Positions 5,439-50,268 of a stretch of 64,000 nucleotides of DNA are shown in pieces. The position numbers were made by a program, and so were the translations under genes. This stretch comes from Siphonodentalium dalli (lineage: Eukaryota > Mollusca > Scaphopoda > Gadilida > Siphonodentaliidae), in NCBI GenBank assembly GCA_032622095.1, contig CP136063.1, positions 215,219,982 through 215,283,981 of the forward strand, read 5' to 3'. Every line of letters begins with the position of its first letter. The stretch's first letter is position 1. Below the pieces are notes generated by a model, which saw nothing but the letters and a program-made list of their open reading frames with translations, did not search any database and had not been told where the DNA came from.

Positions 5439-6226
5439 CCCCAACACACTGAATCCTAAGACTAACCACATAAACAAATAAATATATAAAATAAAATAAT
5501 TATTTTATGCCGAGTAAATAAAATAAAGAAAAAAAATCGTGCCTATGAACATGTCGGCATACGTCGGCCCCAACACACTGAATCCTAAGACTAACCACAT
5601 AAACAAATAAATAAATAAAATAAAATATTTATTTTATGTCGAGTAAATAAAATAAAGTAAAAAATCGTGCTTATGAACATGTCGGCATACGTCGGCCCCA
5701 ACACACTGAATCCTAAGACTAACCACATAAACAAATAAATAAATAAAATAAAATATTTGTTTTATGCCGAGTGAATAAAATAAAGAAAAAAATCGTGCCT
5801 ATGAACATGTCGGCATACGTCGGCCCCAACACACTGAATCCTAAGACTAACCACATAAACAAATAAATAAATAAAATAAAATAATTATTTTATGCCGAGT
5901 AAATAAAATAAAGAAAAAAATCGTGCCTATGAACATGTCGGCATACGTCGGCCCCAACACACTGAATCCTAAGACTAACCACATAAACAAATAAATAAAT
6001 AAAATAAAATATTTATTTTATGTCGAGTAAATAAAATAAAGTAAAAAATCGTGCTTATGAACATGTCGGCATACGTCGGCCCCAACACACTGAATCCTAA
6101 GACTAACCACATAAACAAATAAATAAATAAAATAAATTATTTGTTTTATGCGGAGTGAATAAAATAAAGGAAAAATCGTGCTTACGAACATACATGTATG
6201 TCGGCATACCCCCCCCCCCCCCCCCC
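5439..6226. repeat. 128-bp tandem array, 6 copies, capped by poly-C
   Basis: Units begin with CCCCAACACACTGAATCC at 5439, 5568, 5696, 5824, 5952 and 6080, a period of 128-129 bp. Each holds an AAATAAATAAAATAAAAT block, TTATGCCGAGTAAATAAAAT and ATGTCGGCATACGTCGG. Copies differ by a few substitutions, and two variants (ATTTATTTTATGTCG and AATTATTTTATGCCG) recur, so blocks were copied together. The sixth unit runs into an 18-C tract (6209-6226) exactly where the next CCCC would start. Confidence 0.95.
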
Positions 6227-28526: not shown

Positions 28527-29699
28527 CACTGAGAAATCAAATTCGGGTCAATATATCTAACTTAGTGTTAGTCACAAGCATTTGAGGTCACTTTGACTAA
28601 TCCACACCTTTCAGCGAGTCACTATGACTAACTCTGGTCAGTCTGATGTTAGTCATAGTGACTAAGTTACACCAAGAAGAACTCTAATTGTAACACTGCC
28701 TCGAATTATGCTTAATATGCCTTGCTAAATATTAAAATTCCATTTTATCGCAGTTCTATTTGATCTATAACTGAACGAATGTGATGAAAGGATATAATGG
28801 CATATATATCAGAACTTCCCTCCCACGTCAAAGGTTACACTATCAGGATAATGGTTATTATTCCATGACACCACAGCCATCTCGGGAAAATGAACCATTT
28901 AAACAGACCTTTGTCACAAACTATTGTTATACCTCTTAACCCTTTACCCAACAGAAGGGACCTGTGCCAATGCATTCTCTTATATATGCGAGTCGACCAT
29001 AGGTCGCCTCGCATATATAAGAGAATGCATTGGCTTAACACATTAAAAATTATAAAAATTGTTAAAGAATGTAAGAAAAAATGGTAAAAAGTGTTAAAAA
29101 AAGATTGTTTTTAGGCCAATGCATTCTCTTATATATGCGAGGCGACCTATGGTCGACTCGCATATATAAGAGAATGCATTGGCACAGGGCATAACTGTAA
29201 CTATCACAATGTGGTCAAGGAGCCGGTTCCAATGATATCCATATTTGTATGGTTCTGTTGAGACAGACCGAAGATATTTTAGGCTGTTGAAGCTTTATTT
29301 GGCCGGTTTTGGCCGGTTTGTTGGGTAAAGGGTTAATAGACCCGTACTCAAATCTGTATTTTAGAAAATGGATATTGGTTTTGGATAATATATCATATGG
29401 TTGAGTATTGAAATTATTTGCAACAATTTCCACCCAATTACATGTTCACCTACTCAGTGACTCCTAACACTACAGTTGGTCATTATGACTCAATCCTGGT
29501 CATTTTGACTAATTATAATGTATAATGGTCCAATTAGTCGTTTTGACAAACCACCCATTAGTCGTTATGACTACATCACCTAGTCATTGTGACTAATGTT
29601 TTGCCTTAGTCATTATGGCTAAGCTAAGTTAGTCATCATACATGTGGACAAACAATTGACTAATCTAAGAGTCATATTGACTAAAAATATTCTTCAGTG
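28527..29699. mobile_element. Element/array rich in TTAGTCA-TGACTAA dyads, interrupted by a MITE
   Basis: The ends CACTGAGAAATC...GGTCAATAT (28527 on) and the complement of the right end, CACTGAAGAATATTTTTAGTCA (to 29699), are inverted copies. Inside, TTAGTCA, TGACTAA and close variants, often as facing dyads around AT or TNA, recur about every 20 to 30 bp in 28555-28670 and 29450-29690. The two halves are split by the TTAA-flanked MITE at 28940-29332. No target duplication was identified. Confidence 0.6.
28940..29332. mobile_element. TTAA-flanked MITE with two 69-bp palindromes (copy 2)
   Basis: Flanked by TTAA at 28936-28939 and 29333-29336; ends CCCTTTACCCAACA and TTGGGTAAAGGG. Palindromes at 28966-29034 and 29115-29183. 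Almost identical along its length to 14732-15120, differing by a few substitutions and small indels, so both moved recently. Confidence 0.9.
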
Positions 29700-29814: not shown

Positions 29815-32800
29815 CTTTATTCGGGTGTGACTAATTACCGCCCGGGGACCGCCCGGGACCGCCCGGGGACCGCCCGGGACCGCCCGGGCGGCCCAACGAG
29901 CCCGTTGACACAATATCTCGACGGTATAACGTAGCGACATGCCACCTGAGGGCAACATAGAAAAATTTACTCGCTCGCTCGTCTCCGGCCGGTCATATTA
30001 ACCCCACAAATGCCGATATTGGCTAAAAGAGCCTGGGTGATTACTGGTGTCTTCGTGTGTGTTCAGACAGATTATTTTGGTGATTCTCGGTAGTGCAATA
30101 AGTGCAATACACCTGAGTGTTAATTACATGTATTGACTCGTTGACGCGTCCACGGCCGATGTTATTAACCCCTCAAATTCCGGTAAAATAATGTATAAAC
30201 AAAAGAACCTTGGAACCGCCCGGGACCGCCCGGGCGGCCCCATGGGCCCGTAGACACTATATCTCGACGTTATAACATAGCGACATACCCCACGAGGTCA
30301 ACCTACAAAATGTTACTCCCTCGCTCGACCCCGGCCGGCGTTATTAACCCCTCAAAATCCGACAAAATGGTATATAGACAAAAAGAACATTGGGACCGCC
30401 CGAAACCGCCCGGGAGGCACCATGGGCCCGTGGACACTATATCTCGACGTTATAACATAGCGATATACCCCATGAGGTCAACCTAGAAAATGTTACTCGC
30501 TCGCTCGACCCCGGCCGGTGTTATTAACCCCTCAAATTCCAACAAAATGGTTTATAAACAAAAATAACATTGGGACCGCCCGGGACCGCCCGGGACCGCC
30601 CGGGTGGCCCCACGTGCCCGTGGACACAATATCTCGACGTTATAACGTAGCGACATACCCCACGAGATCAACCTACAAAATGTTGCTTGCTCGCTCGACT
30701 CCGACCGGTGTTATTAACCCCTCAAAATTCGATAAAATGGTATATAAACAATAAGAACATTGGGACCGCCCGGGAGGCCCCATGGGCACGTGGACACTAT
30801 ATCTCGACGTTATAACATAGCGACATACCCCACCTAGAAAATGATACTCGCTCGCTCGACCCCGGCCGGTGTTATTAACCCCTCAAAATCCGACAAAATG
30901 GTATATAAACAAAAAGAACATTGGGACCGCCCGGGAGGCCCCATGAGCCCGTGGACACTATATCTCGACGTTATAACGTAGCGACATACCCCACGAGGTC
31001 AACCTAGAAAATGTTAATCGTTCGCTCGACTCCGGCCGGTGGTATTAACCCGTTATAACGTCAATATATGGTGTCCACGGGCCCATGGGGCCTCCCGGGC
31101 GGCCCCGGGCGGTCCCAATGTTCTTTTTGTTTATATACCATTTTATCGGATTTTGAGGGGTTAATAACACCGGCCGGAGTCGAGCGAGCGAGTACCATTT
31201 TGTAGGTTGATCTCGTGGGGTATGTCGCTACGTTATAACGTCGAGATATAGTGTCCACGGGCCCATGGGGCCTCCCGGGCGGTCCCGGGCGGTCCCAATG
31301 TTCTTTTTGTTTATATACCATTTTATCGGATTTTGAGGGGTTAATAACACCGGCCGGAGTCGAGCGAGCGAGTACCATTTTCTAGGTTGACCTCATGGGG
31401 TATGTCGCTACGTTATAACGTCGAGATATAGTGTACACGAGCCCATGGGGCCTCCCGGGCGTCCCGGGCGGTCCCAATGTTCTTTTTGTTTATATACCAT
31501 TTTATCGGATGTTGAGGGGTTAATAACACCGGCCGGAGTCGAGCGAGCGAGTACCATTTTCTAGGTTGACCTCATGGGGTATGTCGCTACGTTATAACGT
31601 CGAGATATAGTGTCCACGGGCCCATGGGGCCTCCCGGTCGGTTTCGGGCGGTCCCAATGTTCTTTTTGTTTATATACCATTTTATCGGATTTTGAGGGGT
31701 TAATAACACCGGCCGGAGTCGAGCGAGCGAGTATCATTTTATAGGTTGTCCTCGTGGGGTATGTCGCTACGTTATAACGTCGAGATATTGTGTCCACGGG
31801 CACGTGGGGCCACCCGGGCGGTCCCGGGCGGTCCCAATGTTCTTTTTGTTTATATACCATTTTATCGGATGTTGAGGGGTTAATAACACCGGCCGGGGTC
31901 GAGCGAGCGAGTACCATTTTCTAGGTTGATCTCATGGGGTATGTCGCTACGTTATAACGTCGAGATATAGTGTACACGAGCCCATGGGGCCTCCCGGGCG
32001 TCCCGGTCGGTCCCAATGTTATTTTTGTTTATATACCATTTTATCGGATGTTGAGGGGTTAATAACACCGGCCGGAGTCGAGCGAGCGAGTACCATTTTC
32101 TAGGTTGACCTCATGGGGTATGTCGCTACGTTATAACGTCGAGATATAGTGTCCACGGGCCCATGGGGCCTCCCGGGCGGTTTCGGGCGGTCCCAATGTA
32201 CTTTTTGTTTATATACCATTTTATCGGATTTTGAGGGGTTAATAACACCGGCCGGAGTCGAGCGAGCGAGTAACATTTTATAGGTTGTCCTCGTGGGGTA
32301 TGTCGCTACGTTATAACGTCGAGATATTGTGTCCACGGGCACGTGGGGCCACCCGGGCGGTCCCGGGCGGTCCTAATGTTCTTTTTGTCTATTTACCATT
32401 TTATCGGATTTTGAGGGGTTAATAACACCGGCCGGGGTCGAGCGAGCGAGTACCATTTTGTAGGTTGACCTCGTGGGGTATGTCGCTACGTTATAACGTC
32501 GAGATATAGTGTCCACGGGCCCATGGGGCCTCCCGGGCGGTCCCGGGCGGTCCCAATGTTATTTTTGTTTATAAACCATTTTGTTGGATTTTGGGGGGTT
32601 AATAACACCGGCCGGGGTCGAGCGAGCGAGTAACATTTTCTAGGTTGACCTCATGGGGTATGTCGCTACGTTATAGCGTCGAGATATTGTGTCCACGGGT
32701 ACGTGGGGCCACCGGGCGGTCCCGGGCGGTCCCAATGTTCTTTTTGTCTATATACCATTTTGTCGGATTTTGAGGGGTTAATAACACCGGCCGGGTTCGA

Positions 32801-33501
32801 GCGAGCGAGTAAAGTTTTCTAGGTTGACCTCATGGGGTATGTCGCTACGTTATAACGTCGATATATTGTGTCCACGGGCACGTGGGGCCACCCGGGCGGT
32901 CCCGGGCGGTCCTAATGTTCTTTTTGTCTATTTACCATTTTATCGGATTTTGAGGGGTTAATAACGCCGGCCGGGGTCGAGCGAGGGAGTAACATTTTGT
33001 ATGTTGACCTCGTGGGGTATGTCGCTATGTTATAACGTCGAGATATAGTGTCCACGGGCCCATGCGGCCGCCCGGGCGGTCCCGGGCGGTTCCAAGGTTC
33101 TTTTGTTTATACACTATTTTACCGGAATTTGAGGGGTTAATAACATCGGCCGTGGACGCGTCAACGAGTCAATACATGGAATTAACACTCAGGTGTATTG
33201 CACTTATTGCACTACCGAGAATCACCAAAATAATCTGTCTGAACACACACGAAGACACCAGTAATCACCCAGGCTCTTTTAGACAATATCGGCATTTGTG
33301 GGGTTAATATGACCGGCCGGAGACGAGCGAGCGAGTAAATTTTTCTATATTGCCCTCAGGTGGCATGTCGCTACGTTATACCGTCGAGATATTGTGTCCA
33401 CGGGCTCGTTGGGCCGCCCGGGCGGTCCCGGGCGGTCCCCGGGCGGTCCCCGGGCGGTCCCGGGCGGTCCCCGGGCGGTAATTAGTCACACCGCTTTATT
33501 C
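29815..33501. mobile_element. Palindromic satellite-bearing transposon, 3.67 kb, 8-bp TSD
   Basis: Element 29823-33493, flanked by CTTTATTC on both sides (29815-29822, 33494-33501). The ends GGGTGTGACTAATTACCGCC and the complement of GGCGGTAATTAGTCACACCG match except for the terminal base. The outer ~380 bp arms are near-perfect inverted copies. Inward lies a satellite of ~180-bp units with CCCGGGCGGTCCCGGGCGGT, CGCTACGTTATAACGTCGAG and CGGCCGG...CGAGCGAGCGAG blocks. About 5 units run in one orientation (30200-31040) and 12 in the other (31060-33100), meeting near 31050. No transposase is encoded. The 8-bp duplication and long composite TIRs suggest a hAT-like or Foldback-type non-autonomous element. 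Confidence 0.9.
31060..33100. repeat. 180-bp satellite array with 540-bp higher-order period
   Basis: The anchor GGTCCCAATG (or a close variant) falls at 31111, 31291, 31470, 31650, 31830, 32009, 32189, 32369, 32549, 32728, 32908 and 33088, a 179-180 bp period. Variants recur every third unit: a one-base-short CGGGCGTCCCGG form at 31470 and 32009, a GTTTCGGGCGG form at 31650 and 32189, and a CACGTGGGGCCACCC form at 31830 and 32369. Since 180 is a multiple of three, 60-codon repeating open frames arise on the minus strand; these are not genes. Confidence 0.93.
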
Positions 33502-48970: not shown

Positions 48971-49820
48971 TATATTCTGATATTCAATCACCTGTGGTCG
49001 CGATTATATAGTGTTTGCTATATAATCATTGGCATATTGGCTGAGTGAAAGAGACTTTCGTAAAATCACGAATCGATTACGGATATAGACAATATCCTGC
49101 CAGTATACGGCCAAAATTTGATCTTTAGGCACATAGGTTTCTGACGTGGGACGAAATATAGCTCACGCAGTTTAATTATGTGCAGAAGTGTCAAGGGTGT
49201 GCCACCGGTCATGCTTGGGGACGCTCTAACATTATTCGCGTGGTGTTTAGCACACGGATATGAACATGGGATCTGAAAGAGAAACACATTACTTTTTCCA
49301 TCAAATATATGTGTAACTGAATATAGTGGGGCATATGCCGTCTCACCAATTAACCATCGTATGTAAGTTGTGATGGTTCCACATTACTAGAACAATATGC
49401 CTTATCCGTAAAGGTAATAGTGGTTTCTGGAAAGGTCTCTAATAAGTTAGCGATCGTTCTCAGATCCTCAAAGTGGGAGATGACTCTGAGATCATGTCCT
49501 TAAATTGTGATCGCCATGTGGCCTTAGTTTTGATCTATTAGTGGAAACCATGCATACCATTCGTCATCATAAAACACAGGAATTTTGCGGAACACAAATC
49601 GCTAATTGGGTAAATAATGACATGATAACAGCATAATTAAGTACAAAATAATCACGACACGCAGAACCATAAGCACCTTACTGTGAGTGGCAAGCACGAT
49701 TGTTTCACAAACGGACTCGTAGTCGTCAATTCTGCGAAAATATTTTTGAACCGTGTGGAAATTTACGACTACAAATAGCTATTCGTAATAATAATCTGTC
49801 GTCGTTCATTATGCGAAAGG
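48971..49820. other. Intron; nothing recognised
   Basis: AT-rich DNA without supported features. Confidence 0.35.
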
Positions 49821-50268
49821 TGTCTATTGATATAATACGTTACAAGCGAGTTCACATATTCGAATACGTCCTCACTTCTAAAGGTGTCTATTGATATAAT
49901 ACGATACAAGGGGGTTCACATATTCGAACACGTCCTCACTTCTAAATGTGTCTATTGATATAATACGATACAAGGGAGTTCACATATTCGAATATGTCCT
50001 CGCTTCTAAAGGTGTCTATTGATATAATACGATACAAGGGCGTTCACAGATTCGAATACGTCCTCACTTCTAACGGTGTCTATTGATATAATACGATACA
50101 AGGGAGTTCACATATTCGAATACGTCCTCACTTCTAAAGGTGTCTATTGATATAATACGATACAAGGGCGTTCACAGATTCGAATATGTCCTCACTTCTA
50201 AAGGTGTCTATTTATACAATACGATACAAGGGAATTAAACAGATTCGATTACGTCCCCACTGCTAAAC
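49821..50268. repeat. 64-bp tandem array, 7 copies
   Basis: TGTCTATTGATATAATACG starts at 49821, 49885, 49949, 50013, 50077, 50141 and 50205, an exact 64-bp period. Each unit also has ATACAAGG, GTTCACA and TTCGAATA(C/T)GTCCTC. Two alternating variants (GGGAGTTCACATATTC and GGGCGTTCACAGATTC) recur. The last unit is diverged. Confidence 0.95.

Follow-up and report, generated by a model that had tools for sequence, protein, structure and literature searches.

The window analysed here is a 64,000-nucleotide stretch of the genome of the scaphopod mollusc Siphonodentalium dalli (contig CP136063.1, positions 215,219,982 to 215,283,981). It contains a discrete element of 3,671 bp, read directly at 29823-33493, which an initial annotation had described as a transposon with a perfect 8-bp target-site duplication (TSD); the ends, the length and the TSD all proved exact. 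The parts of the element are listed in Table 1. The order within each end is a tip (SGGTGTGACTAATTACC), GC-rich 10/11-bp repeats, a head, and an array of satellite units of 161-190 bp (mostly 179-180 bp), and the GC content of the whole element is 52%. The GC-rich repeat GACCGCCCGGG recurs one to three times in every 180-bp unit, and CCCGGGCGG occurs 40 times inside the element and not once in the remaining 60 kb of the window. The head unit is a diverged unit, 83-88% identical to the units of the array. Four full units in the '<' orientation on the left and 11 in the '>' orientation on the right, together with the partial and head units of each side, agree with the 5 and 12 units of ~180 bp first counted. 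The asymmetric hairpin was confirmed: the arms are 96% complementary over their outer 757 nt, and they abut at 31050/31051. The element has the structure of a foldback transposon, that is, long terminal inverted repeats (TIRs) made of tandem repeats with little or no interior.

Table 1. Parts of the element and its flanking duplications (positions in the window).
Feature	Position	Strand	Basis
Left TSD CTTTATTC	29815-29822		Direct reading; empty site in related repeats
Left tip GGGTGTGACTAATTACC, G-end	29823-29839	+	Tip pattern 494/495 genome-wide
Terminal GC-rich 10/11-bp repeats, left (GACCGCCCGGG)	29837-29888	+	
Left head: diverged unit interrupted by ~146 bp of unique sequence (30005-30150)	29866-30276	-	
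Left arm: array of 161-190-bp units, '<' orientation	30278-31050	-	
Right arm: 11 full 179-180-bp units, '>' orientation, 3-unit higher-order pattern	31051-33027	+	
Right head: unit interrupted by the insert at 33155-33300; left head in reverse complement	33029-33439	+	
Terminal GC-rich repeats, right	33417-33479	-	
Right tip, inward reading CGGTGTGACTAATTACC, C-end	33477-33493	-	
Right TSD CTTTATTC	33494-33501		Direct reading

The genome (2.23 Gb in 9 contigs) was searched with a 23-bp tip, allowing at most one mismatch, and with the reversed tip as a control. The tip matched 494 times in the forward and 495 times in the reverse orientation, and the control never. The heads of 40 scored copies were 97-99% identical to the head in the window. 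Among the exact tips listed from C1 through C3:92.7 Mb, 63 adjacent pairs face inward, with spacings from 170 bp to 18.2 kb and a median of 4.4 kb. Exact 8-bp TSDs, all of them different, were found in 13 of the 20 elements for which both flanks were read, and a 14th (GTACCCAT) was read separately from those 20, at an autonomous copy on C4 described below. The target of the window element is an old repeat, whose copies elsewhere are 70-84% identical. Related repeats cross the junction uninterrupted, carry no element and have the octamer only once, as ATTCATTC or CTTCATTC where the window site has CTTTATTC; this is the empty site.

The initial annotation regarded the element as a transposon made of satellite, with the satellite as its cargo. 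This description is not quite accurate: the satellite makes up the long terminal repeats of a Mutator-like element (MULE), and full-length copies of that element encode a transposase. An 18.2-kb copy (C1:120936968-120955166) has tips, heads and arms as in the window element, placed around 12 kb of other sequence; its arms hold 15 and 7 full units and reach 3.8 kb. On the minus strand of this copy an open reading frame (ORF) with an OTU domain (PF02338, E = 9.6e-7) comes first; two long linker ORFs follow, and after them an ORF for a MULE transposase (PF10551, E = 4.6e-6; PF00872, Transposase_mut, E = 8.5e-4). Direct reading of the transposase ORF revealed the D, D, CxxH and E motifs of DDE/MULE transposases (GVDRTFN, GSDEEKAL, CTRH and NNACES). 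In a second full-size copy (C4:99481104-99499952) the transposase is 99% identical and the TSD is perfect. The starts of the MULE and OTU ORFs are 5,603 and 5,615 bp apart in the two copies, and in both the region lies directly between the arms. Full-length copies of the transposase, four of them, share at least 99% identity, and seven copies of the OTU region share at least 97%. A 16.3-kb copy at C2:38309124, with a TSD matching at 7 of 8 positions, has kept the OTU region and lost the transposase. Because the MULE and OTU domains share one open frame in distant relatives (1,030, 1,051 and 1,277 amino acids), OTU-MULE is probably one protein, and its coding region in this family may contain introns.

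Many smaller copies retain pieces of the autonomous interior, 98.5-100% identical, adjoining the right arm. A 3.0-kb copy (L078) with the exact TSD TTATATCT retains 374 bp of it. The family thus combines a DDE/MULE transposase, a TSD of 8 bp (within the 8-11 bp range of MULEs), and the location of the transposase between TIRs that also bound non-autonomous copies. We conclude that the window element is very probably a non-autonomous, foldback-type member of a MULE family, derived by internal deletion. Some points weigh against this conclusion. No autonomous-interior sequence is kept in the window copy, so that its derivation rests on the shared tips, heads and units; the PF10551 score (27.4 bits) is slightly under the curated cut-off of Pfam (27.6); and the 18.2-kb copy on C1 is without a clean TSD.

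The autonomous form, of 18-19 kb, consists of two inverted arms (tip, GC-rich repeats, head and array of ~180-bp units) around the MULE (DDE) transposase and OTU region. We propose that a transposase supplied in trans would recognize the tips, and probably also motifs repeated in each unit, and would cut the element out and reinsert it with an 8-bp duplication; the shared ends argue for such mobilization of the window element by the MULE transposase. Internal deletions, arising by a presumed pathway, would have stripped the coding region from most copies, and because of this loss the satellite arms abut as an asymmetric palindrome capable of forming a hairpin. Slippage or unequal exchange would cause the number of units per arm to drift, and the arms of one element are homogenized with each other.

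The core of the satellite unit has 4,285 matches genome-wide. Among the first 100 exact matches to the unit on C1, 95 are at most 10 kb from a tip, on its inner side, where 0.3% would be expected, and the other five are isolated single units or a pair. No long arrays independent of mobile-element ends were observed on the scored part of C1, and the largest satellite block seen (C3 157.787-157.799 Mb, at least 10 kb) terminates in a head and a tip; the initial annotation had asked whether large blocks carry element ends at their borders. The number of units also varies widely between copies: arms that were fully read have 0-15 full units, and one arm on C3 has more than 50, as judged by its extent.

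The initial annotation proposed that the element both disperses and amplifies the satellite. The first half holds: the transposon family has dispersed the satellite to several hundred places, with shared ends. For amplification, in contrast, the data hint at a process confined to changes in unit number inside the arms, where the 3-unit pattern of the right arm in the window represents segmental duplication. Units are 0.91-0.93 identical within the same arm and 0.89 between elements, values that do not support a local homogenization of units after insertion, and entire arms of different copies can be aligned without loss of register (2.4 kb at 95%). Since units differ to a similar degree within and between elements and arms align in register, the arrays seem mostly to travel as blocks, apparently without re-amplification at each site.

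A sister MULE was identified at C4:85.61 Mb, with 80% transposase identity. It is followed by an array of its own, a 339-bp dimer (~170-bp units), by repeats of the 10-mer CCCGGGCGTG, and by the tip GGTGTGACTAATTAGTGCCCGGGC. The sister units are recognizably related to those of the window family, yet diverged, and conservation between them is patchy, with no single clear binding site. The sister tip occurs 230 + 219 times genome-wide, and pairs of it bracket several transposase fragments of ~75% identity (e.g. at C1 114.40 Mb and C3 155.26 and 175.04 Mb). A further MULE transposase, 75% identical, adjoins a 353-bp tandem array (L097 2100-4001, C1:113.967 Mb) and is possibly another satellite-armed MULE. 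The 4 kb read beside a 73% relative showed no array. That the sister MULE has its own diverged satellite arm, and that a third relative adjoins a tandem array, suggests that satellite arms are an enduring feature of the ends in this MULE group.

These data bear on the possibility that the satellite was at the outset independent, that the ends of the transposon captured it, and that it hitch-hikes on them today. Such an origin would fit arms that are free to vary in length and copies that consist mostly of units. We consider it very unlikely, because a diverged unit forms the head, the sister MULE carries homologous, diverged units in the equivalent place, and orphan units are few (the 5 of 100 mentioned above, all of one or two units).

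It could also be argued that the window element is a non-autonomous foldback of another superfamily (P/Galileo-like, hAT or Merlin), and that the MULE copies are unrelated nested insertions; the tips GGTGTGACTAATTACC would then be expected on some other coding element. A TSD of 8 bp is also compatible with hAT and P. Long foldback arms occur in Galileo, a member of the P superfamily (cited in PMC4079207). Nested insertion, however, would hardly place MULE/OTU directly between the arms, at equal spacing, in both full copies, or leave flanking interior that is 99% identical in deletion copies, and the sister transposase has related tips and a satellite arm of its own. No P-type transposase with a THAP domain was found between the arms, where the coding region is MULE plus OTU. 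We therefore give this explanation extremely little credence. Finally, an ordinary satellite array inverted or hairpinned by chromosome rearrangement would account for tandem 180-bp units forming the bulk of the element, but it has practically no chance of being correct, since it would leave ends that do not recur and an octamer match due to chance (the outcome that the initial annotation had named as fatal to the transposon), whereas identical ends with exact, locus-specific and differing 8-bp duplications, balanced tip counts against a control of zero, an empty site, and a unit that hardly occurs outside tip-bounded elements were found.

The initial annotation gave the two ends as a sequence and its complement. 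They recur together throughout the genome, but the right tip reads inward as CGGTGTG and not as GGGTGTG, and this first base differs here and in nearly every copy. Of the 63 exact pairs, 61 combine one C-end with one G-end, two are G/G and none is C/C; the top-strand base (S) is thus alike at both ends, in the pattern (TSD)-S-GGTGTG...CACACC-S-(TSD). A TSD longer than 8 bp that includes S was ruled out, the order being TSD-S-element-S-TSD. A 9-bp indel in the head is polymorphic among elements, and the two arms agree in all 15 pairs typed on both sides. Among 79 variable head positions the first alone is fixed between the end types; one other leans (0.06 vs 0.31), and the rest have similar frequencies. 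The idea that C-end and G-end arms are two sequence types was accordingly discarded, as the first base alone separates them. The polarity of the terminal base is independent of the interior: in the C4 and C2 copies a C-end occupies the side that bears the G-end in the 18-kb copy on C1, and the coding region is oriented alike in all three.

Two explanations can be offered for this asymmetry. The interior may be inverted by recombination from arm to arm, with a transposase that requires terminal bases of different kinds; alternatively, transposition may create the terminal base anew. Circular intermediates have been proposed for the bacterial IS256 relatives. It is conceivable, albeit unlikely, that the terminal pair is regenerated in each transposition and not inherited like the arm, that the MULE uses a circle with its ends joined through a single C:G, which would yield the same S at both ends, and that sequence is copied between the two satellite arms.

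Some ends depart from the general pattern. In the right flanks of three of ~20 elements (L069, L073 and L081), NNNNC and then a tip-like GGGTG replace the continuation of the second TSD, which suggests a recurrent kind of aberrant insertion or repair. In L077 (C1:214705667-214708688) the left tip is doubled, the two tips being 91 bp apart and joined via a G run, and it forms no TSD with the right end. Variant tips ending in ACCA were observed in direct orientation, 2,848 bp and once 3,016 bp apart (C2:41286841-41295553, C4:163177488-163180336), and suggest tandemly duplicated element ends. Tips without following GC repeats were considered as a separate autonomous family; they are mostly CCA, and we read them as the same tip after CpG decay. 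Just left of the window element (28568-28665 and 29460-29690) cluster 11 of the 22 TGACTAA/TTAGTCA motifs of the window, which resemble the tip core GTGTGACTAATTA. Two near-identical 69-bp palindromes (28966-29034 and 29115-29183), 149 bp apart and inside a 78-bp inverted repeat, are probably another miniature inverted-repeat transposable element (MITE). Other tandem arrays of the window lie at 5439-6191 (128-bp units, 5.9 copies) and 49816-50267 (64-bp units, 7 copies).

The foldback elements FB/NOF of Drosophila and TU of sea urchins have long inverted arms of tandem repeats, mostly without a coding interior, and by description their repeat units are much shorter than those reported here. 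The closest published precedent in concept, compared by description, is Tetris, a foldback of Drosophila virilis whose TIRs contain satellite-like tandem repeats of ~220 bp in variable number, which also form longer arrays and thus seed a satellite (PMC4079207). Its TSD is 8-10 bp, it was tentatively assigned to Mutator, its units mostly did not cluster by contig, and no autonomous partner was identified (PMC4079207). The Tetris units are AT-rich (~70%), whereas the ~180-bp units described here belong to a 52%-GC element for which autonomous MULE copies are present. For a MULE in foldback form, the closest case is the Tm1 Mutator/Foldback family of Meloidogyne, with MITE-like deletion derivatives and short, non-inverted terminal motifs, an asymmetry comparable to the one seen here (PMC3169594). 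Tm1 differs in having repeats of ~14 bp, a 9-bp TSD, a terminal asymmetry of 7 bp and a FLYWCH transposase (PMC3169594), in contrast to 180 bp, 8 bp, one base and an OTU ORF. In a survey of arthropod MULEs, TIRs were 13-1193 bp in the text and up to 1,527 bp in a table, in elements of up to 10 kb (PMC13359780), whereas the autonomous copy on C1 has arms of up to 3.8 kb.

Foldback transposons that seed satellites are therefore already known from Tetris and Tm1; what is new here is the autonomous MULE partner, the sister MULE with its own arms, and the one-base terminal asymmetry. A difference of one base that stays fixed in a palindrome homogenized everywhere else offers a specific hint about the mechanism of transposition, and if sequence is indeed copied between the satellite arms, each MULE lineage would be a generator of its own satellite. 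A dispersed satellite is here linked, in one genome, to the enzyme that likely mobilizes it, the step that was missing for Tetris. If satellite arms are lasting in this MULE group, the question of whether transposon ends seed new satellites would become testable through sister families and species.
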